From NCBI GenBank assembly GCA_005888755.1, contig VBBQ01000032.1, positions 1 through 40,340 on the forward strand: a stretch of 40,340 nucleotides of DNA, given 5' to 3'. A program made the position numbers and the translations under genes. Positions 1,193-39,231 of this stretch are shown here, one piece after another; position 1 is the stretch's first letter; each line of letters opens with the position of its first letter. Origin of the DNA: Candidatus Bathyarchaeota archaeon. Lineage in GTDB: Archaea; Thermoproteota; Bathyarchaeia; 40CM-2-53-6. The notes below the pieces were generated by a model. It did not search any database, was not told the DNA's origin, and worked only from the letters and a program-made list of their open reading frames with translations.

Positions 1193-2545
1193 TTGACAAA
1201 TGTAGATATGCGCCTCAGAGCAGATGCTGAACGACTCTCTCAGTCTTGGCTATCAGACCGCTGGAATGGAATCCGTCGGCCCTACTCGGCCGAGGAAGTC
1301 TGCAAGCTCCGGGGGACCGTCCATCCAGAGTACACTCTGGCTCGACTCGGCGCGGAAAAGTTTGAGCGCCTGTTAAGGGACGAATCGTTCATTCCCACTC
1401 TCGGCGCTCTGACTGGAGTTCAAGCTCTCCAGATGGTCCAGGCTGGGCTCAAGGCGATCTACATGAGCGGCTGGCAGGTAGCCGCGGACGCTAACCTTTC
1501 AGGCCAAACTTACCCGGACCAAAGTCTGTACCCGGCCAACAGTGTTCCGAATCTAGTGAAGAGGATCAATCAGGCGTTCCTGAGAGCAGACCAGATACAA
1601 TTCATGAACGGCCAAGGTAAAGTCGACTGGCTCGCGCCGATAATTGCCGACGCCGAGGCTGGGTTCGGAGGCCCCCTCAACGCCTTCGAACTGATGAAAA
1701 TGATGATAGAGGCTGGAGCGGCAGGAGTGCACTTCGAAGATCAGCTTGCTTCAGAGAAGAAATGCGGCCACCTAGGTGGAAAGGTCCTAGTTCCCACTCA
1801 TCAGTTCATCAAGACTCTGATCGCGGCCCGGCTTGCATCCGACGTAATGGGGGTCCCAACGTATCTCATCGCGCGAACCGATTCCATGGGAGCGAAACTC
1901 TTGTCGAGCGACGCGGATCCGAGGGACTTGCCCTATACTACCGGTGAGAGAACCGCGGAGGGTTTCTACAGAATCAAACCAGGCATAGAAGCAGCTATTG
2001 CCCGAGGCATGAGCTACGCGCCTTACGCGGACATCCTGTGGTGTGAGACCTCTACGCCGGACCTTGAGGAGGCTAGAAAGTTCGCAGATGCCGTCCATAG
2101 AGTGTTCCCGGGGAAACTGCTAGCGTACAATTGCTCACCGTCATTCAATTGGGAGAAACATCTAGATCCAGAGAGCATTCGACGTTTCCAGCGAGAACTG
2201 GGCATGATGGGTTACAAGTTCCAGTTCGTCACATTGGCCGGTTTCCACAGTCTCTCAGTGTCCATGTTCGAGCTGGCGAAGCAGTACGCTGTTGAAGGAA
2301 TGGCGGCCTATGTTCGTGTCCAGAGGAAAGAGTTCGAAGCCGAACCGGCTGGCTATACGGCCGTGAAGCATCAGGCGTTTGTGGGAACAGAATACTTCGA
2401 CGAGGTCACAAACGTAATCTCGAGCGGAATGTCTTCGACCACAGCGATGAGCGAATCTACTGAAGCAGCCCAGTTCAAAGAACAGTCCGTTCTAGCATCT
2501 CCTCCAGTCTCAAGCACCAAATCCGAGCGAGACCGGAACCAGTAG
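1193..2545 (+). CDS. aceA: isocitrate lyase
   Basis: The product cleaves isocitrate to glyoxylate and succinate, the first step of the glyoxylate shunt. The 450-residue protein has the ICL/PEP-mutase barrel. Catalytic KKCGH is at residues 189-193 within [16 protein letters not shown]. Other family blocks are [11 protein letters not shown] near the N-terminus, [12 protein letters not shown], the metal-site region [26 protein letters not shown] and YNCSPSFNW. The length matches the compact prokaryotic ICL class. About 35 C-terminal residues rich in Ser, Thr and Glu go beyond the recognisable core. An alternative start is the ATG at 1208. Malate synthase begins two bases after the stop, so the shunt is one operon. 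It is an aerobic, acetate- or fatty-acid-related trait that is patchy among archaea. Confidence 0.97.
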
Positions 2546-2547
2546 GT

Positions 2548-4161
2548 TTGCACTTATCTGACGAAACGAAAAGCCGATCCGAGCTAGCACTGGAACCCCG
2601 AACCCTCAAAGTGACAGGGCCCCACATACAGGGTTTAGATGAGATACTGACACCTGACTCGTTGGCCTTTGTCGGAGATCTTGTTCTAGAATTTTCCCCG
2701 CGTCTCGAGTCGTTACTGGAAAAGAGAATCCTCGTTCACGAGAATCTCCGAAACGGAGCACTCCCCGATTTTCTGGAAGAGACGCGTGAAATTCGGGCAT
2801 CGGAATGGAAGGTTGGACCTATCCCGGCTGATCTTCGACAAAGACGGGTGGAGATTACGGGCCCTGTCGATCGGAAAATGGTCATAAACGCACTAAATTC
2901 GGGCGCAGATGTCTACATGGCCGATTTCGAAGACTCCCACTCCCCGACCTGGGAGGGAACCGTTCAGGGCCAGGCTAATCTTCGAGACGCGGTCAACCGG
3001 AACATCCGATACACTGGTCCCGATGGCCGAGAATACAAGCTAGGAGACAGACTTGCAACTCTCATGGTGCGGCCCCGAGGCCTACACCTGATCGAGAAGC
3101 ATGTTCTAATTGAATCCCGCCCCGTCCCCGCTTTCCTGTTCGACTACGGCCTCTTTCTCTACCACAACGCCAAAAAACTGATCAGTCTGGGAACAGGGCC
3201 CTACTTCTACATCCCGAAACTCGAGAGCTACTTGGAAGCCCGGCTCTGGAACGATATTTTCGACTATTCTGAGAAAGCTCTCAAGCTTCCACACGCCAGC
3301 ATAAAGTGCAGCGTCCTAATCGAAACGATCCTAGCTGGATTCCAGATGGACGAAATCCTCTACGAATTGCGCGAGAGGATAACCGCCCTCAACCTCGGCC
3401 GCTGGGACTACATCTTCAGCCTGATCAAGTTCCTAGGCCAAGACCCGAGATTCCTAGTTCCCGAAAGACCACTCCTCCCCATGACAGCACCCTTCCTCAA
3501 ATCCAGCTCTGTCCTGCTGTCCCAATCCTGTCACAGACGAGGCGCCTACGCAATCGGAGGAATGGCTGCCCAAGTTCCAACTAGAAGCGACCCTCGGTCC
3601 CAGGAAGCCATCGACAAAGTAGTCGCTGATAAGAAGCGAGAAGCCGCGGAGGGATACGAAGGCGCTTGGGTCGCCCATCCAGGCCTGGTACCAGTCGTAA
3701 TGAAGGTCTTCGACGACCGTTCGGCAGAATCGAAGTACAATAACGCGATCGTAGAGGCAAGCCGCGATGATCTCCTCAGAGTGCCCGAACCAAAGATAAG
3801 CGAACAGTCTCTAAGAGCGAATGTCGCTGTCAGCCTGAGGTATCTAGAGTCCTGGCTGGGAGGTCTCGGCTGCGTGGCGATCAACAATCTGATGGAGGAC
3901 ACTGCTACGGTGGAGATTTGTAGGGCTCAGATCTGGCAGTGGATTCATCACTCCGCCAAGCTTCTTAACGGCCAGACGATTACGCGTGAATTATTCAGGA
4001 CCATCTTGAAGGAGGAAATGGCAAAAACGGGCGCCGGACCACGATCGCAAGCTGGCGAAAAGACGAATTACAAGACCGCGGGAGATTTGCTTGACTCACT
4101 TGTGGCCAGTGATAGTTTTCCTGAGTTCATGACGCTGCTAGCGTACGACTATCTTCGATAG
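2548..4161 (+). CDS. aceB: malate synthase A
   Basis: The product condenses glyoxylate and acetyl-CoA to malate, completing the glyoxylate shunt with the upstream isocitrate lyase. The 537-residue length matches the A isoform (about 530 residues). Visible blocks are YMADFEDSHSPTWEG, the glyoxylate-binding arginine region TLMVRPRGLHL, the family signature around ALNLGRWDYIFSLIKF, and the late catalytic segment NLMEDTATVEICRAQIWQW. The start is TTG, two bases after the aceA stop, so translational coupling is likely. Some archaea use a different, shorter malate synthase; this is the bacterial/plant-like A form, which suggests lateral acquisition of the pair. Confidence 0.97.
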   Translation: MHLSDETKSRSELALEPRTLKVTGPHIQGLDEILTPDSLAFVGDLVLEFSPRLESLLEKRILVHENLRNGALPDFLEETREIRASEWKVGPIPADLRQRRVEITGPVDRKMVINALNSGADVYMADFEDSHSPTWEGTVQGQANLRDAVNRNIRYTGPDGREYKLGDRLATLMVRPRGLHLIEKHVLIESRPVPAFLFDYGLFLYHNAKKLISLGTGPYFYIPKLESYLEARLWNDIFDYSEKALKLPHASIKCSVLIETILAGFQMDEILYELRERITALNLGRWDYIFSLIKFLGQDPRFLVPERPLLPMTAPFLKSSSVLLSQSCHRRGAYAIGGMAAQVPTRSDPRSQEAIDKVVADKKREAAEGYEGAWVAHPGLVPVVMKVFDDRSAESKYNNAIVEASRDDLLRVPEPKISEQSLRANVAVSLRYLESWLGGLGCVAINNLMEDTATVEICRAQIWQWIHHSAKLLNGQTITRELFRTILKEEMAKTGAGPRSQAGEKTNYKTAGDLLDSLVASDSFPEFMTLLAYDYLR

Positions 4162-6149: not shown

Positions 6150-7292
6150 CTAGATGATGTCCCGAGTGAGGGCTTCTCTGAACTTGACCCTGCAGTCTTG
6201 GCACTGGAAGAGGCCGATGAGTACGTTCTTCTTGGACTTGCCGCCTTTGAGCTCCCAGACCTTCGCTGCTTTTGGAACGTCAGCGCCGCACTTGGGACAG
6301 ACGACCTTGTAGAACTGGCTGGGCAACTGGAGGCTTGGCTGGGCCATGTCTGGTCCTGAGGCGATGCCTGGAACAGTTTCGGTGCCGGGGATCACTGGGG
6401 AAATCTCGCTCTCTGTTGTAGAGACGGCTGAGGAGGCTTCGAGAGTCGGCATGTCATCGACGACCTTGACGACGAGTGCGTCTGCAACATCCTCAACGTA
6501 CTCCTGAGCTGGTGCTGCAGTGAAAGAATCCTCGACGGCAGGTGTGCTTGATTGGGTCAATGGAGTAATGGGGGCTGCGGTGGTGTCCGCTGAGACTGCT
6601 GAAACTGGTTGGGCTTGTTCCTGGACCGGTGGGGTGAACACCGGGGTCGGCGTTGCGACTGGGGTGCTGATTGGTGCATTGTTGGTCTGAGGATTCGTCC
6701 AGGTTGAGCCGTTACTCGATGGTTGAGGTGCGACAGGCGTTGTCGGGGGAGCCCATGGTCTTTCCGAGGCAATGGAGCTCGCCGCGAATTTGACGCTTGG
6801 CGAAGTGGGTGTCGGGGCAGGTGCTTGTTGTGCTGGGGTTGGTGCCTGTATTGGAACAGCGTTTCTGGCCCATTCCTCGATGAGAGTTCGTGGAGCTGGT
6901 GGGTTTGCTTGTTTGAAGTCGGCTGGTGCTAGTGGTCTGGTCTCGATGTGGGTTAGAACTTCGATCATGTCTTTGATCTCTTCGATGCTGTGGAGGTTTC
7001 GTTGTAGGAGGCCCTTGAACTCTTCTCGTTGTCCGCGGTATTCTTGTTCGCTGACCTCGCCCGTTACGTATTTTGTCTCAAGGTTCAACAGTCTTTGCGG
7101 TGTGCTGCCGATCTGGTCTTTGGTCTCTTTGAGGTGCTCGTTCAACGTGTATCCTAACACGTTGATCCTGTCTTGGAGGTCTTGTGAGGCTCGTCCGTAT
7201 TCCTCGTAGATGGTGCGCATTTTGTCTTTGTAGCCGTTGATCTCGCTGATCAACTTCTCTAGAGTTAGATCGTTTAGTACCATTTTTTTCAT
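6150..7292 (-). CDS. coiled-coil, low-complexity linker and C-terminal zinc-ribbon protein
   Basis: This 380-residue protein has three parts. Residues about 1-125 are strongly helical and charged, coiled-coil-like (LTLEKLISEINGYKDK; QEYRGQREEFKGLLQRNL). About 200 residues follow that are rich in Pro, Thr, Ala and Gln and surely disordered. The C-terminal 55 residues hold a zinc ribbon: CPKCGADVP and, about 25 residues later, CQDCRVKFREAL. The start is ATG 7292 or 7283; the longer frame to 7343 runs into the promoter. I know no named family. The gene diverges from the Cdv operon and shares its upstream region. The helical head and Pro/Thr tail resemble the layout of CdvA-1 without its PRC barrel, so a division-associated role is a reasonable but unproven inference. 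Confidence 0.8.
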   Translation of the reverse strand: MKKMVLNDLTLEKLISEINGYKDKMRTIYEEYGRASQDLQDRINVLGYTLNEHLKETKDQIGSTPQRLLNLETKYVTGEVSEQEYRGQREEFKGLLQRNLHSIEEIKDMIEVLTHIETRPLAPADFKQANPPAPRTLIEEWARNAVPIQAPTPAQQAPAPTPTSPSVKFAASSIASERPWAPPTTPVAPQPSSNGSTWTNPQTNNAPISTPVATPTPVFTPPVQEQAQPVSAVSADTTAAPITPLTQSSTPAVEDSFTAAPAQEYVEDVADALVVKVVDDMPTLEASSAVSTTESEISPVIPGTETVPGIASGPDMAQPSLQLPSQFYKVVCPKCGADVPKAAKVWELKGGKSKKNVLIGLFQCQDCRVKFREALTRDII

Positions 7293-7381
7293 CCTAGGGA
7301 AGCGACTTCTATGAGGTAAAATGGTAAAAGCGTTCAACCGCAAAAACCCTGGAAAACATGGGTTGTAAACCCAGAATCAGC

Positions 7382-7484
7382 AATTTGGTAGAAACAACAC
7401 TGTCAATGACGAGCGTCGAATTATCCGGTTTTTAACTGGCAATGCTAAACTGGGATTGGGGAAAACACAACTTCCTACCAATTT
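7382..7484. promoter_or_regulatory. spaced inverted repeat between divergent promoters
   Basis: The arms aatttggtag (7382-7391) and ctaccaattt (7475-7484) match as an inverted pair at nine of ten positions. They bracket the space between the zinc-ribbon gene and the Cdv operon, with the right arm just upstream of the Cdv TATA box. This would suit an operator or looping site for a dimeric regulator, but no binding protein can be assigned from sequence. Confidence 0.35.
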
Positions 7485-7494
7485 TCCGACACCG

Positions 7495-7502
7495 CATATA
7501 AA
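7495..7502 (+). promoter_or_regulatory. TATA box of the Cdv operon
   Basis: catataaa in a GC-rich context is the best TATA match in the 300-base divergent region. Transcription would start near 7520-7528, leaving a leader of about 75 bases before ATG 7600. That is long for an archaeal mRNA. Confidence 0.6.
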
Positions 7503-7514
7503 CCAAAACCGTCC

Positions 7515-7590
7515 TGTGGACCACACAACATACCCGCCGAATATCTGTTGACAACAGGCAACCTATTGCCTGAGCTAGAATTTGTCTAGC
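7515..7590 (+). promoter_or_regulatory. palindrome-rich leader of the Cdv operon
   Basis: Four perfect inverted repeats stand almost end to end. They are TGTGG-a-CCACA (7515-7525), CTGTTG-a-CAACAG (7545-7557), CAGGCAA-ccta-TTGCCTG (7555-7572, overlapping the previous one) and GCTAGA-atttg-TCTAGC (7574-7590). They lie between the predicted transcription start and the first ATG. They could be mRNA hairpins controlling translation, or operators. The two middle repeats cannot both form at once, since they share CAACAG/CAGGCAA. Confidence 0.6.
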
Positions 7591-7599
7591 CTGCAGAGT

Positions 7600-8322
7600 A
7601 TGAATTCACACCTTTCCATGTCAAGAACCCACTTGGAACATGTCCCAAGTAAGCCAGCTTTCAAGATAGAAATGTCATACAAGTCCATGAAGAATTGGGA
7701 CCGAGAGCAAAGGGAACCTTTACTCTCCAAGGTCACCGATCGCATCCACCACCAAGAACCGCTCAAAGAAAAGATCTCACAGGTCGTCTACAAACTCAAA
7801 GTACAACAGAACAGGCTCGAAGGAGCCAACCTCAAGACACAGCAGCATGACAAGTCACTCTTCGACAAGTGTGTCCAAGCCCAAATGTCCAAAGACACAA
7901 TGCGAAGCGCAATGTACGCCAACGAGATCGCTGAGATCCGGAAAATCGCCAAAGTCACCCTCAGAAGCGAACTAGCACTCGAACAAGTCGTACTCCGACT
8001 CGAAACAATCCAGGAATTCGGCGACGTCGCAGCCATGATGGGCCCAGTAGCAGGAGTAGTACACCAGATCAAGAACCAGATCGCAGGAGTCATCCCACAA
8101 GTCGGCTACGAATTAGGCGAGATCTCCGACACGCTAAACAGTGTGGTCATGGAAGTCGGCGAGGCAACAGGACAAGGCTACGACCTGGAAGCATCAGGCC
8201 CAGAAGCCTCGAAGATCATCTCTGAAGCCAACACCATAGCAGAGACACGGATGCGCGAGAAGTTCCCGGAGTTACCCTCTCCAACCGCAACCGCAGAACA
8301 CGAGACAGTGATTCCAAGGTAG
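7600..8322 (+). CDS. ESCRT-III/Snf7-family division protein 1 (CdvB paralogue without winged helix)
   Basis: ESCRT-III proteins polymerise on membranes during division. The 240-residue product has the charged helical hairpin of the family (PLKEKISQVVYKLKVQQNRLE; QAQMSKDTMRSAMYANEIAEIRK; LRSELALEQVVLRLETIQEFGD). A glycine/valine-rich central helix follows, then the C-terminal motif MREKFPELPSP, a likely MIM2-type site for the Vps4 MIT domain. No winged helix is present. Starts at 7600, 7618, 7672 or 7687 are possible. Alignment with the other two copies favours one near MKNWDREQREP (7687), whereas TTG 7582 falls inside a leader hairpin. It is the first gene of the operon, 34 bases before cdvA-1. 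Confidence 0.9.
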   Translation: MNSHLSMSRTHLEHVPSKPAFKIEMSYKSMKNWDREQREPLLSKVTDRIHHQEPLKEKISQVVYKLKVQQNRLEGANLKTQQHDKSLFDKCVQAQMSKDTMRSAMYANEIAEIRKIAKVTLRSELALEQVVLRLETIQEFGDVAAMMGPVAGVVHQIKNQIAGVIPQVGYELGEISDTLNSVVMEVGEATGQGYDLEASGPEASKIISEANTIAETRMREKFPELPSPTATAEHETVIPR

Positions 8323-8356
8323 GAGTAACTCCGACAACATTTTTTGGTGCAAAATC

Positions 8357-9073
8357 ATGCCAATAACACTTGAACAAGTCCGAAGATTCCTCGGCAGAAC
8401 CCTCCAAGACCCCTACGGCAGAGCCTTCGGCAAAGTCGTAGGCATCTCCGCCAACCTCAGAGACGAGGTAACGGGAGTAGGAATAGAGGAAGGCAACGGA
8501 GAGTTTCTCCAATGCCCCGGCGACAGGGTCACCATAACCGGAGACACCCTCGTCCTTGCACCGGCTTGGAAGGTCGAAGCAGAGGAGTTTCGGAAAGAAT
8601 TCGACATCGTAACCAGACGCCTCCGCGCACTGGACGAGCTGTTCAGCGTCGGCGACATCCAGAAGGACGTCTACGAAGATCTAAGGAAGCAGCACGAGGA
8701 CGCAATTAACGAGTTGAAGGGTAAACGGAAGGAGATAATCGACACCCTAAGCCAGCGAACCAGCACTCTCAACACTCAGCTTCGACAGTTACAGACACAC
8801 CTCGCAGGCAACAAGATGTTGCACGCATCCGGCGAATTCGACGACATGAACTACAAACAAGCTAGCGATGCTATCGACAGCGGTCTTGTCCGCGCGATGG
8901 CTGAGAAGAAAGACGTTGAGACGATCTACAGTTACCTGCAGAAGCTCGACGCGACACAAGTGCCCCCCGCCGCCCAGCAGCCCCAACCGATTGCTCCAAC
9001 GCCTCAACCCACCACAACGACAACCTCCCCCTCGAGAGATCCCGTTATGGTACTTCACGTGAGGGAGACTTAG
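8357..9073 (+). CDS. cdvA: CdvA-type division protein 1
   Basis: CdvA is the TACK-specific DNA- and membrane-associated protein that recruits CdvB. Residues about 1-70 form a PRC-barrel-like beta domain (FLGRTLQDPYGRAFGKVVGI, then DTLVLAPAWKVEAEEF). Residues 75-200 are a long charged coiled coil. The last 40 residues are a Pro/Gln/Thr linker ending in PVMVLHVRET. A short terminal strand after a linker is where CdvA carries its E3B peptide for the CdvB winged helix, so this tail may do the same. The length (238) is typical. The AGGAGG for the next gene begins within its TAG stop. A second CdvA lies at 13375. Confidence 0.9.
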   Translation: MPITLEQVRRFLGRTLQDPYGRAFGKVVGISANLRDEVTGVGIEEGNGEFLQCPGDRVTITGDTLVLAPAWKVEAEEFRKEFDIVTRRLRALDELFSVGDIQKDVYEDLRKQHEDAINELKGKRKEIIDTLSQRTSTLNTQLRQLQTHLAGNKMLHASGEFDDMNYKQASDAIDSGLVRAMAEKKDVETIYSYLQKLDATQVPPAAQQPQPIAPTPQPTTTTTSPSRDPVMVLHVRET

Positions 9074-9077
9074 GAGG
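9072..9077 (+). promoter_or_regulatory. Shine-Dalgarno site deciding the cdvB start
   Basis: AGGAGG overlaps the cdvA-1 stop and lies nine bases before CTG 9087. No ATG, GTG or TTG occurs in the cdvB frame between the upstream stop (9060) and ATG 9138. From CTG the protein reads (M)FRKFEDRV, which aligns with MFRDNPSLTDRI of the paralogue at 12762. Confidence 0.55.
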
Positions 9078-9086
9078 ATTCGAGGG

Positions 9087-9890
9087 CTGTTTCGAAAGTT
9101 CGAAGACAGAGTCCACCCTATCCCTCTGAAGGAGCGTATGTCCCAGGCTCTGTTCCGGCTCGGCTCCCAGAAGGAAAAACTGGAGCACATGTCTTCGAGG
9201 CTCCAGCAACGCGACAAGGAAATGTTCCAACGCTGCATCGGAGCGCAACTCTCCAAGGACACAGCTCATGCGGCCCTCTACGCCAACGAATGCGCTGAAA
9301 TCCGAAAAATGGCACATCTCACTCTTAGCAGCGAACTAGCCCTCGAAAGGGTCATCCTCCGAATGCAGACGGTCGAAGAGTTCGGTGACATCATGGCTCA
9401 GATGGCTCCCGTCATAGGCGTAGTCCGCGAGACCCGCGGTAGAATCGCCGGGGTTATTCCCGAGGTAGCTAACGAGCTTGGCGAAGTCAACAACATGCTC
9501 AGCGATATGAGTATTGAAACCGGCGAGGTTGGACAAGACCAGAGTTTCGACATGGCCGCCTCAAGCACTGAAGCACGCAAAGTCCTCGAAGAATCCAGCG
9601 CCATCGCATCCCAACAAATGAAGGAACGATTCCCAGAACTACCTCTACCGGAGGCTCGCCAACCCGTCCCAGAAGCTGCAACCCGGGCGCCCGAACAAAG
9701 GATCCCCATAGCCATCACAACAAACGGATCGGAAGAGGCTCCACTAGAAGACAGGCTCCTAGACTACATCAAAACGCACAACGGTGAGCTCAGCCTCAAC
9801 AACTGTTCCGCAGAGCTTCTGGTCCCGAGCGACGACATCAGGCGCTCTCTACAACGGCTCAAGGATGACGGAAAGATAGTCATGGACTAG
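9087..9890 (+). CDS. cdvB: CdvB: ESCRT-III protein with C-terminal winged helix
   Basis: This is the main archaeal ESCRT-III division protein, expected to bind CdvA through its winged helix and CdvC through a MIM2 motif. The product is about 267 residues from CTG 9087 (250 from ATG 9138). It has the Snf7 helical core (LKERMSQALFRLGSQKEKLE; QLSKDTAHAALYANECAEI; LSSELALERVILRMQTVEEF), then MKERFPELPLP, then a linker. The C-terminal 55 residues read as a winged helix (EDRLLDYIKTHNGELSLNNC; SDDIRRSLQRLKDDGKIV). Among the three ESCRT-III genes here only this one has that domain. The CTG start is inferred from the SD site and paralogue alignment; ATT 9078 is the other option but abuts the SD. Confidence 0.92.
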   Translation: MFRKFEDRVHPIPLKERMSQALFRLGSQKEKLEHMSSRLQQRDKEMFQRCIGAQLSKDTAHAALYANECAEIRKMAHLTLSSELALERVILRMQTVEEFGDIMAQMAPVIGVVRETRGRIAGVIPEVANELGEVNNMLSDMSIETGEVGQDQSFDMAASSTEARKVLEESSAIASQQMKERFPELPLPEARQPVPEAATRAPEQRIPIAITTNGSEEAPLEDRLLDYIKTHNGELSLNNCSAELLVPSDDIRRSLQRLKDDGKIVMD

Positions 9891-9945
9891 ACGGGAGACA
9901 AGTGCTCCCGTTCAAGCCCTTCACTGTCACAAGAGGGGACAAGTA

Positions 9946-11091
9946 ATCTCAGCATCAGAAGAACTGGAATCTCTCGCAGTAAAATACGCAAAGGAAGCAA
10001 TCGAGCTAGAGAGAAAAGGCTCCAAACGCCTCGCCGCCACAAAGTACCAGCGGGCCATCGAAGTCCTCCTCAAACTATGCTCCCTCTACCCAGCAGCGGT
10101 TCAGAACAAAGTCTACACGGAACACGTGGAAGCTTACAAAAAACGAATCCAAGAACTCCAGTCCGACGAGCCAATCGCTCATTCTATGGACTCCACTGAG
10201 ACCCGCGACTCAAAGACCGTCAAACTCGACCAGTGGGTCTTGACAGAGAAACCGGACATCAGCTGGAGCGACATCGCTGATCTGGAAAAGCCGAAGAGGG
10301 CAATCGAAGAGTCGATAATCTTCCCTGTTCGAAGACCAGATCTCTTTCCTCTTGGCTGGCCTCGAGGAATACTATTCTTCGGACCCCCAGGTTGTGGAAA
10401 AACTCTACTCGCTGCCGCCATTGCGAGCGAGATAAAGGGGATGTTCTTCTGCGCCGACGCTGCGTCCCTGATGTCAAAGTGGCTTGGAGAGTCGGAACGA
10501 AACGTCTCCCAACTATTCACAAAGGCAAGGGAAGTGTCTGAGAATGGGCAGCCAGCGATCGTTTTCATCGACGAAATCGACTCGCTAATGGGCGTCCGGG
10601 GAGAAGAGGTCGGCGGAGAGGTTCGGGTTCGAAACCAATTCCTGAAAGAGATGGATGGAATCTTAGACAAGAACAGGAAACTCCACGTCTATCTTATCGG
10701 CGCAACGAACAAGCCATGGGTCCTAGACGAACCGTTCATCCGACGGTTCCAGAAGAGAATCTACGTCCCACTGCCAGACGTCAAAGCTCGCATGGACATG
10801 TTCCAGATCTATGCTCAGAATCTGAAGTTCCAGAACAACGTCGACTTCGCCGAGCTGGCAAGAAGGACCGAAGGCTATTCCGGGGGAGACATTCGCGATC
10901 TATTCCAGTCAACGCAGATCAAGGTCGTTCGCGACTTCTTCCAACGCGGCGCCGCTAACGATCTCAACGCGATTCCAGACCCGATTACCATGGAAGACTT
11001 TGAGACTATCATCGTGGGCCGGAGGCCAAGCGTCTCACAGAACATCATCAAACGCTACTTCGACTGGGACGAATCGTTCAAGGCATCGTAG
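9946..11091 (+). CDS. cdvC: CdvC: Vps4-type AAA ATPase with MIT domain
   Basis: This ATPase remodels and disassembles ESCRT-III polymers. From GTG 10126 the frame encodes only the linker and AAA domain, but the frame upstream gives a full MIT domain (EELESLAVKYAKEAIELERK; RLAATKYQRAIEVLLKLCSLYP; YKKRIQEL). No ATG/GTG/TTG is available there. Family members begin M-S-A, and here ATC (9946) is followed by TCA GCA with a GAGGGG motif 8 bases upstream, so an ATC start is the best reading (381 residues). Walker A GPPGCGKT is at about 146-153, Walker B VFIDEIDS near 206-213, then GATNKPWVLDEPFIRRF with the arginine finger region and a C-terminal RRPSVSQNIIKRYFDWDESF. The Lrp gene follows three bases later. 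Confidence 0.94.
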   Translation: MSASEELESLAVKYAKEAIELERKGSKRLAATKYQRAIEVLLKLCSLYPAAVQNKVYTEHVEAYKKRIQELQSDEPIAHSMDSTETRDSKTVKLDQWVLTEKPDISWSDIADLEKPKRAIEESIIFPVRRPDLFPLGWPRGILFFGPPGCGKTLLAAAIASEIKGMFFCADAASLMSKWLGESERNVSQLFTKAREVSENGQPAIVFIDEIDSLMGVRGEEVGGEVRVRNQFLKEMDGILDKNRKLHVYLIGATNKPWVLDEPFIRRFQKRIYVPLPDVKARMDMFQIYAQNLKFQNNVDFAELARRTEGYSGGDIRDLFQSTQIKVVRDFFQRGAANDLNAIPDPITMEDFETIIVGRRPSVSQNIIKRYFDWDESFKAS

Positions 11092-11094
11092 AGG

Positions 11095-11574
11095 ATGAAA
11101 GACGTGAACCTTGACGGAACTGACCTGCGAATCCTCGCGGAGCTCGTGGAGAACTCCAAACAGTCTTACGTTGAGATAGGCCGCAAGCTCGCTCTGCATC
11201 CCAATGTGATCGCCTACAGAGTCAACCGGTTAGAAGACGCGCACATTATCCGCGAGTACACAACCCTCATTGATTTCGGAAAGCTCGGCCTATCAGAACA
11301 AGTGATAGTCGCCGCTAACTTTCCCAGCAGCCCCTCCAGAGAAGACATTCTGAAACAAATATGTGAGATTCCAGAGACCCTTAACGTAATCAGCTCCCTC
11401 GGGACCCCAGAAGGACTCGTCTTCATAGTCGCCCGCAACAAAGAAGACGTGAACGCGGTTCTATCAAAGCTCCGTTCAATGAACCTTGACATCGATTTCG
11501 CCTCCTCAGTCATCAGGACCTACGACGAGGGACGCTTGGGAATGTTCCTCCGGTCTATGGCAGGTCCAGAATAG
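11095..11574 (+). CDS. Lrp/AsnC-family transcription regulator
   Basis: The 159-residue protein has an N-terminal helix-turn-helix (LDGTDLRILAELVENSKQSY; EIGRKLALHPNVIAYRVNRL, about residues 5-50) and an alpha/beta RAM-like ligand and dimerisation domain. The frame starts three bases after the cdvC stop with a GAGG just before it. Co-transcription with the division genes is therefore very likely, suggesting local or global control of division by a metabolite-sensing factor. The effector and target sites are unknown; the inverted repeats upstream of the operon are candidates for autoregulation. Confidence 0.88.
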   Translation: MKDVNLDGTDLRILAELVENSKQSYVEIGRKLALHPNVIAYRVNRLEDAHIIREYTTLIDFGKLGLSEQVIVAANFPSSPSREDILKQICEIPETLNVISSLGTPEGLVFIVARNKEDVNAVLSKLRSMNLDIDFASSVIRTYDEGRLGMFLRSMAGPE

Positions 11575-11589
11575 AAAGGTCGATCCTAT

Positions 11590-12057
11590 TTGGAAAAGCC
11601 ATCCTGGACCCCGATTGTCTTATCCGGCGCCGTCCCACGTGAAGCCACGGACCTGCTCGCAATCCTGGTAATGGGAATCGTGGCCGTGGAAGCTTCTCTT
11701 GCTGCATTAAGTCCCACGCTCTTCGGTTCGAGGCTCTGGCTCTCTCTCCTAGTTGCCCCCCCGACATGTGCCCTAGCATCTGTCTCCACAACGACGAGAC
11801 GGACGAGAGAGGAACTGGCCCTCTTCGCGTATGGAGGCTCCGGCTGGCAGATTCTCCTACGATACTTCATCAGGGGAGCAATCATTGCTCTGGTCGCATT
11901 CTCTCCAGTAATACTCCAAGAGTTTCTAACAACAACTTCGATCCTCAATCTAGTCGCAGCAGTGATCGTCCTATTGCTTACAGGAGGGTCGTTCTACTCG
12001 CTGCCGAGCCTTCGCAGAATTCGATCCTCGTCGTTCGTTGAGAACTACAAGAGTTAG
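11590..12057 (+). CDS. small FtsX/MacB-like ABC permease
   Basis: This is a 155-residue integral membrane protein starting with TTG and having four predicted membrane helices (about 21-42, 48-66, 98-115 and 122-140). Between helices 2 and 3 is a cytoplasmic stretch (TRRTREELALFAYGGSGWQILL) that looks like the coupling-helix segment of ABC3/FtsX/MacB permeases, where RREIALL.ALGAS is typical. The ATPase gene starts six bases later, which supports one transporter. It is much shorter than FtsX or MacB and lacks a large extracytoplasmic domain. Family placement is by this motif and context, not by full-length similarity. Confidence 0.7.
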   Translation: MEKPSWTPIVLSGAVPREATDLLAILVMGIVAVEASLAALSPTLFGSRLWLSLLVAPPTCALASVSTTTRRTREELALFAYGGSGWQILLRYFIRGAIIALVAFSPVILQEFLTTTSILNLVAAVIVLLLTGGSFYSLPSLRRIRSSSFVENYKS

Positions 12058-12063
12058 CAAGCC

Positions 12064-12759
12064 ATGTCATCCGTGATCGAAACCCGGTCAGTGGTAGTCG
12101 AATACCCTTCAGTCAAAGGGATCCTGCGCCTCTACGATCAAGGCGTTTCTTTGAAAGTGGATCAAGGAGACTTCCTAGCCGTGCTCGGTGGGTCCGGTTG
12201 GGGAAAATCAACACTCGTCAACGTTATCCTGGGATTGGAGAAGCCGATTCATGGATCCGTCAGCTTCCGCGACCATGATGTCACACGGGAATCATTCGTA
12301 AAACGATGCGCTCTCATTAAGACAGCAGCCGTGTTTCAAAGGCCCACCGCACTTCCCCAAATGACTGTCTCGCAAAACCTGCACCTAGCTCTATCGCTAG
12401 CGGGGGTCCCGAGAAAAGATCGCGATGAAAGGATCAAAGAAGCTCTCGCATTCTTCGGATTAGACAAGATCGAACGGTCATACCCTGATGGGCTGAGCGC
12501 CGGCCAACGAAGACGAATCGATCTCGCAAGAGCCTTGGCCGTCAAGCCCGAACTACTAGTGATCGACGAGCCAACCGGTGACTTGGATGGGTCGGCTACA
12601 AACCTGCTGATTCCTCTTCTGAGAGGACTGAACCGGAACCAGGGAACGACGATTTTCATGACCACCGCACTGCCCCGCCAAGCGTCACAAGCCAAGCACC
12701 AGGTGCACCTCAGACCCCCCTTGTATCTCACGCCGGAAAACAGGATGATAGGAGACTGA
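12064..12759 (+). CDS. ABC transporter ATP-binding protein (FtsE/LolD/MacB type)
   Basis: The 231-residue nucleotide-binding protein has Walker A GGSGWGKS (about 42-49), a Q-loop region VFQRPTALPQMTV, signature LSAGQRRRIDLARAL and Walker B LLVIDEPTGDLD. The EPTGDLD form and short length are typical of the FtsE/LolD/MacB branch that energises mechanotransmission rather than import. The usual switch histidine is not obvious: the expected region reads IFMTTALPRQAS, so catalysis may be altered. It pairs with the upstream permease and is followed two bases later by ESCRT-III-3, inside the division operon. Confidence 0.9.
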   Translation: MSSVIETRSVVVEYPSVKGILRLYDQGVSLKVDQGDFLAVLGGSGWGKSTLVNVILGLEKPIHGSVSFRDHDVTRESFVKRCALIKTAAVFQRPTALPQMTVSQNLHLALSLAGVPRKDRDERIKEALAFFGLDKIERSYPDGLSAGQRRRIDLARALAVKPELLVIDEPTGDLDGSATNLLIPLLRGLNRNQGTTIFMTTALPRQASQAKHQVHLRPPLYLTPENRMIGD

Positions 12760-12761
12760 CG

Positions 12762-13370
12762 ATGTTCCGCGATAACCCTTCATTGACAGATAGGATTCGG
12801 GAAGCGATAAAGCCGACACCAATGAGACAGCGGATCCAGTTCGCGTCCCACAAGCTCCGCCTCCAAACGACACGGCTAGAACGTAGCATCACCCAGATGG
12901 AATCACGAGACCAAACGCTCCGGGACAAATGCACGAAAGCATTGGAAGCACGAGATACGCAGACCGCCACGGTTTTCGCCAACGAATGCGTGCAAATTCG
13001 AAAACTCATCAAAACATCCCTCCGAAGCCAGATCTGCCTCGAACAAGCACTATTGCGCCTTGAGACGGTGGAACAGTTCGGGGACATGGTTCACAGCATG
13101 GGCTCTGTCAGGGGACTACTCGGCACAGTGAGAGGAGAACTGGAGGGCAAACTTCCCGAGATTTCGACAGGCATCGGAGATGTTGAAGACTCATTAGAAA
13201 ATCTCACGATGGAAATCGGGGAGGCCGTCGACGCCGATGGAATGTCAATCCCCGTCAATGATGAGTCTGCTCACATCTTGAAGGAGGCGGATCTCATGGC
13301 TGAGCAGAAGATGAAGGAGAAATTCCCAGAGATTCCTCAGATCGTGAATCCAGCTCATCGAGTGAGGTAG
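12762..13370 (+). CDS. ESCRT-III/Snf7-family division protein 3 (no winged helix)
   Basis: The 202-residue paralogue of CdvB starts with ATG two bases after the ABC ATPase stop, with a GGAG motif just upstream. It has the same core as the other two copies (MRQRIQFASHKLRLQTTRLE; KCTKALEARDTQTATVFANE; LRSQICLEQALLRLETVEQFGD) and ends MAEQKMKEKFPEIPQIV, again a MIM2-like proline motif. The acidic segment after the core (EIGEAVDADGMSIP) matches the corresponding stretch of copy 1. It lacks a winged helix, so it probably joins filaments started by CdvA/CdvB rather than binding CdvA in the known way. It is followed four bases later by cdvA-2. Confidence 0.9.
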   Translation: MFRDNPSLTDRIREAIKPTPMRQRIQFASHKLRLQTTRLERSITQMESRDQTLRDKCTKALEARDTQTATVFANECVQIRKLIKTSLRSQICLEQALLRLETVEQFGDMVHSMGSVRGLLGTVRGELEGKLPEISTGIGDVEDSLENLTMEIGEAVDADGMSIPVNDESAHILKEADLMAEQKMKEKFPEIPQIVNPAHRVR

Positions 13371-13374
13371 ACTA

Positions 13375-13995
13375 TTGTTGTTATCTCCAGAGTTGGAGAC
13401 GAAGGCTCTCCTGGGGCGAAGTGTCAGCGATATCTACGGCAGATTGCTTGGACGCGTGATAGGTATCGAACGGAATCACTTCGGCGAGATGGAAGGCGTC
13501 CAGGTAGAAGCAACAGGCGGAATTATTCTAACAGCAAAAGCCAGGCAAATGGCCCTCACCCCGAAGACAATCACGATATCCCCGGAGTGGAAGCTTGAGT
13601 CCGAGGACATCATTTCTGAGCTTACGCTGTTGAGAAAGCGGGTCGGCGCTCTTGAGTCATTGAAGGATTCAAGGGAGATTGACGGGGAAATCTACTCGGA
13701 GCTCCTGGAGTCGCAAAAGGCAGGCTACTTGGACAAAGTGAAACTGGCAAGCGCCCTAGTCGGCTCAATGCGATCTAGACTAGCCGAGATCACTGGACAA
13801 ATCACGAGCCTGACAAGATATCTCGTCAATGCGAAGCTGGATCACAAGAGCGGGGAGCTTGACGAGGATTCTCTGAAACTGGCGCAGGGTTCTATCGAGC
13901 CGAGTCTTCGGCCTTTGATCGCGGAGAGGAACGATCTTACGTTATCGATCAAAGTGGTCGAGCAGGTCTTGCCGTCTAAGGTCAGTATTAACTAG
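13375..13995 (+). CDS. CdvA-type division protein 2
   Basis: The 206-residue product begins with TTG four bases after the ESCRT-III-3 stop. The N-terminal PRC-barrel-like domain (LLGRSVSDIYGRLLGRVIGI; KTITISPEWKLESEDI) aligns block by block with CdvA-1. A long coiled coil follows (about 75-200). Unlike CdvA-1 it ends right after the coiled coil, without a Pro/Thr tail or terminal E3B-like strand. If it acts with CdvB it must do so differently, for example by mixed filaments with CdvA-1. It ends the operon; a hairpin lies just downstream. Confidence 0.85.
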   Translation: MLLSPELETKALLGRSVSDIYGRLLGRVIGIERNHFGEMEGVQVEATGGIILTAKARQMALTPKTITISPEWKLESEDIISELTLLRKRVGALESLKDSREIDGEIYSELLESQKAGYLDKVKLASALVGSMRSRLAEITGQITSLTRYLVNAKLDHKSGELDEDSLKLAQGSIEPSLRPLIAERNDLTLSIKVVEQVLPSKVSIN

Positions 13996-35543: not shown

Positions 35544-36029
35544 ATGGCATCATTCAAGGGAACCGCAGCCCTTCGAATCCTAGCTTACGGGTCTGCTCTC
35601 TCAACCTATGTGCTGATCGTTATCGGAGGCTACGTTGTCTTTAGCGGCTCTGGATTGGCCTGCGGTAGTTCTGGCCCAGATTCTTGGCCACTGTGCAACG
35701 GACAGGTCATCCCCACTCTCTCGGGACCAGTTCTCGTAGAATGGACCCACAGGCTGTTCACAGTGGTCGTTGGACTCTTCGTGCTTGGAACAATGATAGT
35801 CGCTTGGACACGATACAGAGAGGAAAAGAGGGTCCTTCAATTATCGACTGTCAGTTTTCTTACTCTCTTAGGCCAGATCTTGCTCGGGATGGTAACTGTG
35901 AAAACTGACCTGGATCCCCTAGTGAGTACGGCTCACCTCGCTGTGGCCTCCGCGTTGTTTTCCGCCGTCATACTAAACGCGATTACTGTAAGAAGGATCA
36001 CATCTTCGTCCCATTTGCTTTCTAGATAA
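35544..36029 (+). CDS. ctaA: half-size heme A synthase (CtaA/COX15 family)
   Basis: It oxidises heme O to heme A for the terminal oxidase. The 161-residue protein has four membrane helices instead of the eight of bacterial CtaA, the half-size form known in some archaea, which presumably dimerises. Heme-ligand histidines are in VEWTHRLF and VSTAHLAVASALF. The Cys-containing loop GLACGSSGPDSWPLCNGQV matches the ACG..WPLCNG segment of the family. It lies just upstream of the oxidase subunit genes, so the oxidase probably contains heme A. Confidence 0.9.
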   Translation: MASFKGTAALRILAYGSALSTYVLIVIGGYVVFSGSGLACGSSGPDSWPLCNGQVIPTLSGPVLVEWTHRLFTVVVGLFVLGTMIVAWTRYREEKRVLQLSTVSFLTLLGQILLGMVTVKTDLDPLVSTAHLAVASALFSAVILNAITVRRITSSSHLLSR

Positions 36030-36064
36030 TGGCTATTCCCGTTCGTTATAGTCAGTGCATAACG

Positions 36065-36073
36065 CTTTAAAAA
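36065..36073 (+). promoter_or_regulatory. TATA-like box for the oxidase operon
   Basis: ctttaaaaa lies about 41-49 bases before the subunit II ATG. It would give a leader of about 15-20 bases and suggests that subunit II begins its own transcript separate from ctaA. Confidence 0.5.
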
Positions 36074-36113
36074 CGAGGAGGCCGAGACGAAGAAAAATCA
36101 AGAGACATAGAAG

Positions 36114-36806
36114 ATGGCGATCTCCAACACTCAAGTAATTTTCGACAATCTCTACGGCATCTTCACCTATCTCGCCTTCCTTGTTGGAATAATCGTTTTC
36201 GCGCTGATGGCATACCTGATAATCAGGTACCGCGCGAAAAAATCTTCAAGCGATCCCGAAGATACACCCCGGCTCGGCCGCATTCCAACCTCACGCGGTC
36301 ATGGTCGAAACGTGTTAGTCACCGTAACGCTTTCGACGTTCCTTTTGGCCGTCTTGATAATCACGTCGTTTGCCGCTGTGGATACGCTTTTCCCCAATAA
36401 CCCCCCAAATGCCACGTGGTGCTACAGCATTGCCGCCTACAATCAGACCCAAACCGCGGGACAAAGTTGCCCACGCCTGGACGTCACAGGTCACCAGTTC
36501 TATTGGGTTTTCACATATCCGGGCGCTCGATCGTACACCAATTTTTTCAGGGTGCCTGTTAACACGACGGTCGTCCTTGACGTTACCAGCGCGGATGTTT
36601 TCCACGATTTCGGGATTATACAGTTCAAGATCAAAACAGACGCGATTAAGGGACGAACCAACACCATCTGGTTCATCCCCTACCAGACCGGGACTTACAC
36701 AATCCAGTGTTTTGAGTTGTGCGGGACTGGACACGTCGGAATGATCGCAACTCTGGCCGTTATGAACGTCACAGCTTTCCAGAGCTGGTACGGCAGTGCA
36801 AAGTGA
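36114..36806 (+). CDS. coxB: heme-copper oxidase subunit II with CuA site
   Basis: It accepts electrons from a soluble or membrane copper protein or cytochrome. The 230-residue protein has two N-terminal membrane helices (about 12-35 and 62-85) and a cupredoxin domain outside. The CuA ligands are complete: His164 (VFHDFG), then Cys199, Cys203, His207 and Met210 (CFELCGTGHVGM). The aromatic electron-entry patch GHQFYWVFTYPG is present. A complete CuA means a cytochrome-c-oxidase-like donor rather than quinol. Its TGA stop lies four bases before the subunit I ATG. Confidence 0.96.
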   Translation: MAISNTQVIFDNLYGIFTYLAFLVGIIVFALMAYLIIRYRAKKSSSDPEDTPRLGRIPTSRGHGRNVLVTVTLSTFLLAVLIITSFAAVDTLFPNNPPNATWCYSIAAYNQTQTAGQSCPRLDVTGHQFYWVFTYPGARSYTNFFRVPVNTTVVLDVTSADVFHDFGIIQFKIKTDAIKGRTNTIWFIPYQTGTYTIQCFELCGTGHVGMIATLAVMNVTAFQSWYGSAK

Positions 36807-36810
36807 CCAT

Positions 36811-39231
36811 ATGAGCCAGGATATCCTCCCACCTAGAATCAGGAGGTGGCTGTTCACAACCAACCATAAGGAAGTTGGAATCCTCTACCTCGTTACGGCC
36901 CTCTTCTTCTTCGTCGCAGCTGGATTATTGGCTCTCACCATGAGGACACAGCTGTCCGTTCCGGACAATCATGTGCTGACCGAGACCCTGTACAATCAAT
37001 TCGTAACAGTGCACGGCCTCCTGATGATATTTTGGGTTCTGTCCCCATTCGCCTTTGGCTTCGCGAACTACATCATTCCACTACAAATTGGAGCTCGGGA
37101 CCTTGCATTCCCGAGGCTCAACGCGATGAGTTACTGGTTCTACCTGTTCAGCGGCGTGGCCATCATCATGAGTTTTATCTTCGGGGCCCCGGACCTCGGC
37201 TGGACGCTCTATTCTCCTCAGACCGCAATCCAATTCTCCCCGTCCATCGGACTCAACGTAGGAGCTGCCGCTCTCATCCTGATTACCGTCTCAATAACAA
37301 TGAGCTCAGTGAACTTTCTTGTGACCATGTTCAAGATGCGAGCCCCGGGTATGAAGCTGAGGCATATGCCGGTCTTTCCATGGGCGATTCTGGTCACTAT
37401 CTTCATGATGCTCTACGCGTTTCCATCTTTTCTAGCCGCCGTTCTCTTGCTGTATGTTGACCGGGCATTCGGAACTTTCTATTTCTCTTCAATTCAAGGT
37501 GGAGCACTGCTCTGGGACAATGTCTTCTGGTTCTTCGGGCATCCTGAAGTCTACATCGTCCTGTTTCCTGCAATAGGCCTTATCGCCGATGTCATTCCGA
37601 CATTCACTCGCCGACCCCTCTATGGCGCCAAGTATGTCATTGGTTCTATGATAGCTGCTGCGATCATCAGCTTCATCGTTTGGGGTCATCACATGTTCGT
37701 GACAGGAATCGGATTGACCTCAACCAAGTTGTACACTGTCACAACAATCGCGGTTTCCCTGCCCTTTGATGTGATGGTAATCGCAATGATCGAGACTCTG
37801 ATCAAAGCGCGGATCAAGCTCAAGGCAGCCGCACTTTTTGCGCTAGGAGCTATCGCCCTCTTCGTGATTGGCGGGATCACCGGCGTGTATCTCGCGTCTG
37901 TGGCTCTTGATCACGCATTAAGAGGTACGTATTTCGTCGTTGCTCACTTCCATTACATCATGGTCGGTGGAAGTATCATGGGACTGATCGCCGGATTGTA
38001 CTACTGGTTTCCAAAATTCACTGGAAGAATGTACAATGAAACAGTCGCCAAGATCCATTTTGTAGTTTCCTTCATTGGGTTCAACATTCTCTATTTTCCG
38101 ATGTTTCTCTTGTTGGATATGCCACGGAGAATACAGACATACGCCCCGGACACGGGATGGGGATCCCTGAACTCGCTTGCAACCCTCGGGGGCTTCATCT
38201 TCGGTGGGGCGCAGGTACTGCTCTTCCTAAACCTCTTCCTGAGCCAGCGGAAGGGATTGCCCTCTGGGCCGAATCCCTGGGATGGCTGGACGCTGGAGTG
38301 GTCCCTTCCTTCCCCGCCTCCGGCCCATGACTTTGATACTATACCGACTATTGCTGAAGACGGCACTTACCATTTCGGGGACAGCCCCGGACTGCCAAAT
38401 GGGGCTGGGTATCCGAACGGCTCCAAGATAGGAAACGGTTATTCACACTCTCACCTTGAAGGTTTAAGCGCTTGGCCGATTGTCGTGGCTTTCGCTGCGT
38501 TCATCTTCTTCCTCGGGTTAACGATAGGACAACCTAACAACCCGACGACTCCAGTTACCTTTCAGCCCTTCTGGCCGTTGATAGCGGATGGCGCTATCCT
38601 TGGCGTCATCGCGCTTTATGGTTACAGCAGAGAAAGGTTCTCGGTGCATGAAGAGACTCGCACAGAGAGCTGGCCGTTCCGGGAGGTTCCAAACGTCAAA
38701 CTTGGAATCTGGACGTTCTTGGGTGCCGAAGTGATCTTTTTCGGGGTACTCATCGGCGCATACTTTTTCGTTCGAACCAACTCCCCTACATGGCCTGAAA
38801 TCGGGTCACTATTCGATATCCGGAACGGGTTTGCAATGACGCTAGTTCTGTTGACGAGTAGTCTCACCGCGATAATGGCTCTCGTCTCGGCAAAAATAGG
38901 ATCACGCAACGGGTTGATCTCAAGTTTGTTGGCAACCTTTGGACTTGGGGTTGCGTTTCTTTACATAAAGTCAACCGAGTGGGTCTATCTCGGAACGCAC
39001 GGGGTGTTCTCCGTTGCAAGCGGCCTCCCCGCGACAAGCTATTTCATCACCACGGGAACCCACGGGGTTCACGTTTTCGCGGGCATGCTCATGACACTGT
39101 ATCTGCTAGTCAACAGTCTAAAAGGACGCTATCTCAAGGGCGATCATCAAGCAATTGAGCACTTCGGTCTCTACTGGCACTTCGTCGACATTGTCTGGGT
39201 GTTTCTCTTCCCATTGTTCTATCTCATCTAG
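36811..39231 (+). CDS. coxAC: heme-copper oxidase subunit I fused to subunit III
   Basis: It is the catalytic core of an oxygen-reducing proton pump. The 806-residue protein starts at ATG 36811 (MSQDILPPRIRRW). The subunit I half has heme and CuB ligands His68, His244, His293, His294, His379 and His381 (VHGLLMIFW, FGHPEVYI, WGHHMF, HFHYIMVGG). Tyr248 is the cross-link residue and Glu246 the D-channel glutamate, marking an A1-type oxidase. After a hydrophilic Gly/Pro linker (about 505-550) the subunit III half carries PNVKLGIWTFLGAEVIFFG, THGVHVFAGM and YWHFVDIVWVFLFPLFYLI. Fusion of I and III is known in SoxM-like and Nitrososphaeria-like oxidases. Confidence 0.96.
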   Translation: MSQDILPPRIRRWLFTTNHKEVGILYLVTALFFFVAAGLLALTMRTQLSVPDNHVLTETLYNQFVTVHGLLMIFWVLSPFAFGFANYIIPLQIGARDLAFPRLNAMSYWFYLFSGVAIIMSFIFGAPDLGWTLYSPQTAIQFSPSIGLNVGAAALILITVSITMSSVNFLVTMFKMRAPGMKLRHMPVFPWAILVTIFMMLYAFPSFLAAVLLLYVDRAFGTFYFSSIQGGALLWDNVFWFFGHPEVYIVLFPAIGLIADVIPTFTRRPLYGAKYVIGSMIAAAIISFIVWGHHMFVTGIGLTSTKLYTVTTIAVSLPFDVMVIAMIETLIKARIKLKAAALFALGAIALFVIGGITGVYLASVALDHALRGTYFVVAHFHYIMVGGSIMGLIAGLYYWFPKFTGRMYNETVAKIHFVVSFIGFNILYFPMFLLLDMPRRIQTYAPDTGWGSLNSLATLGGFIFGGAQVLLFLNLFLSQRKGLPSGPNPWDGWTLEWSLPSPPPAHDFDTIPTIAEDGTYHFGDSPGLPNGAGYPNGSKIGNGYSHSHLEGLSAWPIVVAFAAFIFFLGLTIGQPNNPTTPVTFQPFWPLIADGAILGVIALYGYSRERFSVHEETRTESWPFREVPNVKLGIWTFLGAEVIFFGVLIGAYFFVRTNSPTWPEIGSLFDIRNGFAMTLVLLTSSLTAIMALVSAKIGSRNGLISSLLATFGLGVAFLYIKSTEWVYLGTHGVFSVASGLPATSYFITTGTHGVHVFAGMLMTLYLLVNSLKGRYLKGDHQAIEHFGLYWHFVDIVWVFLFPLFYLI

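Follow-up and report, generated by a model that had tools for sequence, protein, structure and literature searches.

The closest described relatives of the locus analysed here are the cell division (Cdv) loci of Sulfolobales and of other Bathyarchaeia. Surveys report TACK (Thaumarchaeota, Aigarchaeota, Crenarchaeota and Korarchaeota) archaea with a minimal CdvABC set (PMC11188069), and in the two Sulfolobales loci examined (L106 and L111) only CdvA, CdvB and CdvC stand together. The described Bathyarchaeal cdv loci have an ESCRT-III–CdvA–CdvB–CdvC core, and the additional CdvA-like proteins of these archaea are encoded outside the cdv locus (PMC11188069). As to the route that takes CdvA to the membrane, a 2026 structural study reported CdvA filaments with no membrane binding in vitro and no membrane-binding surface, and its authors speculated that unidentified partners tether or activate CdvA (PMC12818579). 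The DNA analysed here (the window, 40,340 nucleotides, which is contig 28 of a 2.01 Mb assembly in 48 contigs) carries an expanded Cdv locus in which a small FtsX-like membrane protein and an FtsE-like ATP-binding cassette (ABC) ATPase are encoded among the Cdv genes. The host is a Bathyarchaeia relative and not a member of Nitrososphaeria, and its samples were presumably soil. The whole evidence base consists of comparative analysis and structural prediction; on it, we rate as new the variant Cdv locus carrying the FtsEX-like module and as known the Cdv core and its families.

With the Sulfolobales Cdv system the window locus shares the CdvA–CdvB–CdvC core, the E3B-like tail of CdvA (here CdvA-1), the winged helix of CdvB, MIM2-like motifs and one MIT-bearing Vps4, whereas it adds all the ESCRT-III paralogues, a second CdvA, an Lrp-family gene and the FtsEX-like pair. 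It also shares the four-gene core and the presence of additional CdvA-like proteins with the described Bathyarchaeal loci, but here these proteins, CdvA-2 and a zinc-ribbon CdvA-like protein, are encoded inside or directly beside the cluster. Neither FtsE nor ABC transporters nor Lrp is mentioned in the text of the ESCRT survey (PMC11188069), and literature searches on FtsX with CdvB, on Cdv in Bathyarchaeia or Bathyarchaeota and on CdvA with ABC transporters, whose scope left aside subscription papers, preprints and supplements, found no description of such a locus, in line with the first-pass annotation, which knew of no description of such a double set. Nine close-packed plus-strand genes occupy positions 7672–13995 and a further gene diverges from them on the minus strand; the features are as follows.

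6150–7343, minus strand: CdvA-like coiled coil with a long proline/alanine/threonine-rich linker and a C-terminal zinc ribbon, without a PRC barrel (PF18822, 32.3 bits)
7497–7502, plus strand: TATA box of the operon, in the context GCATATAAACCAAAAC, invariant in 15 aligned loci
7672–8322, plus strand: ESCRT-III-1, wing-less, with the MIM2-like tail REKFPELP (NF041005, E 1.2e-66; tree; motif)
8357–9073, plus strand: CdvA-1, with PRC barrel, coiled coil, linker and the E3B-like C-terminal tail VMVLHVRET (PF18822, 74.9 bits; NF041007, E 5.9e-30)
9087–9890, plus strand: CdvB, with ESCRT-III core, MIM2-like motif and C-terminal winged helix (NF041008, E 1.8e-42, residues 12–267)
9946–11091, plus strand: CdvC/Vps4, with MIT (6e-6), AAA+ (AAA, 4e-36) and Vps4_C (2e-4) domains (NF041006, E 5e-154)
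11095–11574, plus strand: Lrp/AsnC-family regulator (PF13404, E 1e-10)
11590–12057, plus strand: minimal FtsX-like permease with four transmembrane helices and no extracellular domain (fold and orthologues)
12064–12759, plus strand: ABC ATPase of the FtsE/LolD/MacB type (PF00005, E 6e-30; best NCBIfam match FtsE, E 4e-39)
12762–13370, plus strand: ESCRT-III-3, wing-less, with the MIM2-like tail KEKFPEIP (Snf7 PF03357, E 1.3e-9, over the cut-off)
13375–13995, plus strand: CdvA-2, with PRC barrel and coiled coil, without linker or E3B tail (PF18822, 34.9 bits)

This anatomy (genes, order and families) is near certain. The first-pass annotation had read the same nine genes in the same order as one contiguous, expanded Cdv locus, in which a single CdvB and a single Vps4 are surrounded by three ESCRT-III genes and two CdvA genes, and the domain and family matches confirm this; its inventory had left the third CdvA-like gene at 6150–7343 undescribed. 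The core set of a Cdv system, CdvA, ESCRT-III/CdvB and an MIT-bearing Vps4/CdvC, is present, and the three ESCRT-III genes and the single CdvC-type Vps4 gene of the genome as assembled all lie within this cluster. The NCBIfam CdvB1/B2 and CdvB models match ESCRT-III-1, CdvB and ESCRT-III-3 at E 1e-66 to 1e-26 and the cell_div_CdvC model matches CdvC at E 5e-154, all of these matches falling under the strict equivalog cut-offs; the PF18822 (CdvA coiled coil) cut-off is 30 bits. The spacers downstream of CdvC measure 2–15 nt, and the element TATATAAACCAAAA, about 170 nt upstream of ESCRT-III-1, is identical in all 15 loci that were aligned from the genus and its family. Expression of the whole cluster is probably governed by the Lrp-family protein. 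A second element, CRTGTCAAGAA... (7617–7640), in the leader of ESCRT-III-1, is conserved above its surroundings in the 15 loci, though not as coding sequence.

The locus was compared across an order sample of 38 genomes in six families; most of the genomes analysed are metagenome-assembled, the family and order labels are anonymous, and families, genomes, loci and contigs are referred to by f, G, L and C codes. The layout is shared by the window genus, by two further genomes of its family (G018 and G020) and by families f3 and f6; wherever CdvA-1 and CdvA-2 are on one contig, they lie about 5.0–5.25 kb apart. Given this conservation within the genus and beyond it in two more families of the order, the gene comparison indicates that the locus is stable and did not arise by a recent duplication. 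Within the cluster FtsX, FtsE and CdvA-2 are all-or-none: they are present in the genus, G018, G020, f3 and f6 and absent from G019, f2, f4 and f5, whose clusters retain ESCRT-III-1, CdvA, CdvB, CdvC and ESCRT-III-3. The four-gene core of ESCRT-III, CdvA, CdvB and CdvC is found in many other families of Bathyarchaeia (for example L084–L086), and in f9, as in most families of the order, the Lrp gene comes after CdvC. Beyond the order, CdvA–FtsX–FtsE occurs in three f9 genera and CdvA–CdvB–FtsX–FtsE in f8. These arrangements suggest a layered locus, in which Lrp and ESCRT-III-3 would have been added to the core, then FtsX/FtsE with CdvA-2, and then the divergent zinc-ribbon CdvA-like gene. A single clade for the families with CdvA-2 and FtsEX gave p 0.36 in the approximately unbiased (AU) test, which agrees with one gain of FtsEX and CdvA-2 as well as with several losses. 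An ABC–CdvA–ESCRT neighbourhood was also seen in G197 (L245).

Searched alone, the window permease has no match in Pfam or NCBIfam, while its orthologues in f3, f6 and f9 match PF02687, the C-terminal domain of FtsX-like permeases, over the cut-off (4e-11, 1.5e-11, 1.3e-9 and 2e-7). The nearest folds to its AlphaFold model (predicted local distance difference test score, pLDDT, 83.8) are FtsX (8hd0, Z 12.0; 8x61), LolE and MacB; helical membrane folds reach middling Z values easily, and it is the Pfam matches of the orthologues that carry the assignment. According to the model, its 155 residues form a bare four-helix membrane core without an extracellular domain. Model and orthologues identify the "ABC permease" of the first-pass annotation as a minimal FtsX-like, type VII ABC permease with a core of four transmembrane helices. 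The neighbouring ATPase keeps its Walker A, its Q loop, its signature and the Walker B Glu, but has Ala in place of the H-loop His. The same four motifs are intact in all 14 Cdv-linked ATPases, whereas the H-loop His is retained in three of them (all from f9), compared with 38 of 40 paralogues. Since the H-loop His is mostly lost while all other motifs are intact, a switch fits better than a pump.

With bacterial FtsEX, which belongs to the type VII ABC systems together with LolCDE and MacB, the window pair shares the FtsX core fold, the PF02687 motif (in the orthologues), an FtsE-type ATPase and linkage to a division machine. It differs in that its genetic partner is ESCRT/CdvA, in that the window protein lacks the extracellular FtsX domain which in bacteria controls a peptidoglycan hydrolase, and in that the FtsE catalytic motifs are incomplete, the H-loop His being absent from the window ATPase and from 10 of its 13 relatives; the pair would be at most a putative orthologue of bacterial FtsEX. 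Sequence and fold of the permease do not discriminate between FtsX, LolE and MacB, and ABC ATPases matching the FtsE model number 10 to 29 per genome in the eight genomes searched, which would suit a pair that is simply a MacB/LolCDE-type exporter of small substrates or lipids and happens to be co-transcribed with division genes. Such an exporter is, in our view, unlikely: the pair stands beside cdv genes in five families, in differing arrangements, the permease has 155 residues against about 300–600 and no counterpart of the extracellular domain found in MacB, LolC/E and FtsX, and the H-loop His has gone from most of the linked ATPases. Moreover, the 14 Cdv-linked ATPases group in a single exclusive clade (100/99, in 100% of bootstrap trees) when placed in a tree with 40 other ABC ATPases that come mostly from the same genomes, which shows their common ancestry, and in a 220-genome sample of the phylum only members of this clade scored above 300 bits, the next protein reaching 249.

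CdvA-2 is a CdvA paralogue of altered form. Among solved structures, the one nearest to its AlphaFold model (16 sequences, pLDDT 88.5) is 9s9g, a CdvA filament from S. islandicus (Foldseek E 5e-13; VIA Z 17.8, with 194 residues aligned at 26% identity and a root-mean-square deviation of 3.0), and the PRC barrel and three-helix coiled coil are intact in the model. Its PF18822 score is 34.9 bits, against 74.9 bits for CdvA-1. In CdvA-1 the coiled coil is followed by a linker and a short tail, VxVxx, which is conserved from Sulfolobales to the window genus and corresponds to the E3B peptide in position and pattern. The E3B peptide of CdvA binds CdvB. CdvA-2 stops after the coiled coil in f1 and f3, with a residual tail left in f6. 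Because this tail is missing, we read direct CdvB recruitment by CdvA-2 as lost, so that it would not be a CdvB recruiter of the known kind. CdvA-2 occurs in just three of the six families, and a tree of 83 CdvA proteins places it in one clade (100/99) and the CdvA-1 proteins of the order in a separate clade that excludes it (96/93). The best tree derives CdvA-2 from the FtsEX-linked CdvA of f8/f9, but with support of only 72/60, and such a descent is not claimed.

All three ESCRT-III paralogues carry a MIM2-like K/R-FPE(L/I)P stretch, so one Vps4 could act on all of them, and ESCRT-III-1 and ESCRT-III-3 both combine a Snf7-type core with the MIM motif. The CdvB core matches solved chains of CdvB2 (9s97, E 2e-45) and CdvB (9s9j, E 5e-26), and its winged helix is covered by the CdvB-model match (residues 12–267). 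In a tree of 80 ESCRT-III proteins, order-wide groups were obtained for ESCRT-III-3 (100/97), CdvB (98/99) and ESCRT-III-1 (85/78), and ESCRT-III-3 was found in all six families. Trees and fold accordingly place CdvA-2 and ESCRT-III-3 inside the Cdv families and not with unrelated ones, the outcome on which the first-pass annotation had made its reading depend. Its further proposal of a duplicated two-gene block finds no support in the trees. The identical gene order of the two pairs would suit a tandem duplication that left a largely redundant second pair, and sister placement was not rejected by the AU test (p 0.28 for ESCRT-III, 0.38 for CdvA), but a joint duplication is not favoured because ESCRT-III-3 occurs without CdvA-2 (in G019, f2, f4 and f5) and the CdvA-1 clade excludes CdvA-2; furthermore, CdvA-2 has been kept in f1 and f3 despite the loss of its tail, which fits a changed role. 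We therefore consider such a duplication very improbable, and to judge from the trees both paralogues seem to predate the split of the families.

Two filament systems serving two tasks had also been suggested, and this stands as a possibility that is not favoured. In such a scheme CdvA-2 and ESCRT-III-3 would serve vesicle budding or membrane repair and share Vps4 with division, which would agree with the distinct, tail-less CdvA-2, with the separate clade of ESCRT-III-3 and with the implication of wing-less ESCRT-III paralogues in vesicle budding of S. islandicus (PMC11796394). It appears quite unlikely, as the genes form one operon-like array with the division genes, the three ESCRT-III proteins share a MIM2-like motif on which the one Vps4 could act, ESCRT-III-3 is present throughout the order even without CdvA-2, and several wing-less ESCRT-III paralogues share one Sulfolobus division ring (PMC11796394).

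In the reading that we prefer, there is one division machine, and its CdvA-2/ESCRT-III-3 layer is anchored or gated by the FtsEX-like module; on sequence and models, we give this somewhat less than an even chance. In this mechanism CdvA-1 would polymerise and recruit CdvB through its C-terminal tail and the CdvB winged helix (the families are known, the binding is predicted), ESCRT-III-1 would join CdvA-1/CdvB, and CdvC/Vps4 would extract subunits through MIT–MIM2 contacts. The FtsX-like four-helix protein would lie in the membrane, paired with the FtsE-like ATPase, and closing of the ATPase dimer on ATP would alter it in such a way that it captures or releases a CdvA polymer. The polymer served here would be mainly CdvA-2, with ESCRT-III-3 as its partner filament, and the module would serve a single composite division ring as its tether to the membrane or as its timing gate, and would be neither a pump nor a separate vesicle machine. 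Physical contact, the direction of control and the role in division are what we infer here; the pair is a candidate tether because five families encode an integral membrane protein either next to CdvA or elsewhere in the CdvA cluster, and the one-direction array of nine genes with its invariant upstream TATA element supports the proposal. The broader claim, that CdvA polymers in part of Bathyarchaeia have a reduced FtsEX-type ABC complex as their membrane receptor and ATP gate, is tentative and rather doubtful.

Several points weigh against this proposal. Gene linkage alone is not proof of contact, and the family of the FtsX-like protein, whose own sequence lies under Pfam detection, rests on fold and orthologues. 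The pair is missing from the Cdv clusters of G019, f2, f4 and f5 and from those of most other Bathyarchaeia families examined; since it is absent from the Cdv clusters of these relatives, it is not generally required, and a membrane tether would differ between relatives. Loss of the H-loop His would be expected to slow the enzyme. Finally, Sulfolobus ESCRT-III proteins bind membranes by their own N-terminal helices (PMC12818579), so that a tether may be dispensable.

The third CdvA coiled-coil protein (6150–7343), which probably starts at an ATG near 7292 or at the TTG at 7343, has a conserved CPKC...CQDC zinc ribbon and is a conserved divergent partner of the operon in the genus and G018. By domain layout it resembles Thermoproteales arCOG03733/03734 (PMC11188069), which also join a CdvA-like domain to a zinc ribbon, but the ribbon is C-terminal here and N-terminal there. 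In three f9 genera a small zinc-ribbon protein, similar in pattern to the ribbon of this protein, is encoded directly upstream of CdvA (L071:5035–5397, L162:4548–4838 and L163:7671–7994). Another CdvA coiled-coil protein, 148 residues long and standing alone (L072:3803–4246, G000 C37; PF18822, 37.9 bits), occurs across the genus. A class-wide search at E 1e-7 gave no CdvA match in 12 of 12 f14 genomes, 3 of 3 f10 genomes and G031 of f4, all at least 85% complete.

The start codons of CdvB and CdvC are unusual. CdvC begins at about 9946, which includes the MIT domain, and not at the first GTG (10126), and no ATG, GTG or TTG stands ahead of the MIT domain or of the conserved N-terminus of CdvB (9946–9948 and 9087–9089, respectively). 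The probable starts are ATC for CdvC and, for CdvB, CTG at about 9087, after AGGAGG (9072–9077). At the CdvC start position, 13 genomes (G018 and 12 of the genus) have ATC, G017 has ATT, and G012 and G003 have GTT; most other families have ATG, GTG or TTG there, and f5 and f4 have TTA, CTA or TTC. The CdvB CTG after AGGAGG is found in 14 genomes, and in G005 a GTG stands one codon upstream. Gene-calling programs would miss the MIT domain of CdvC.

G006 contains two cdv clusters (C85 and C92; L047 and L048), apparently of different genera, and C85, in view of its resemblance to genus g4, is probably mis-binned. In G033 an apparent fusion of FtsE and ESCRT-III (a 470-residue frame) proved to be an artefact of a run of N. 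Besides Cdv, the window genus has a divergent FtsZ-family protein (G000 C14:8872–9705; 112 bits, cut-off 295); no such protein was found in several families of the order. The 40,340-nt stretch of this Bathyarchaeia relative also carries isocitrate lyase and malate synthase of the glyoxylate shunt (1193–4161) and the aerobic respiration genes COX15, COX2 and a fused COX1–COX3 (35544–39231).

For the question of how CdvA reaches the membrane, a conserved integral membrane protein and an ATPase, encoded beside CdvA in several families, provide a concrete and testable candidate. If the proposal is true, the anchor of an ESCRT-based division ring would belong to the superfamily that also serves the FtsZ divisome of bacteria. 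An FtsEX-type module, familiar from bacterial division, would then be combined in an unusual way with ESCRT-III, which acts in archaeal and eukaryotic division.

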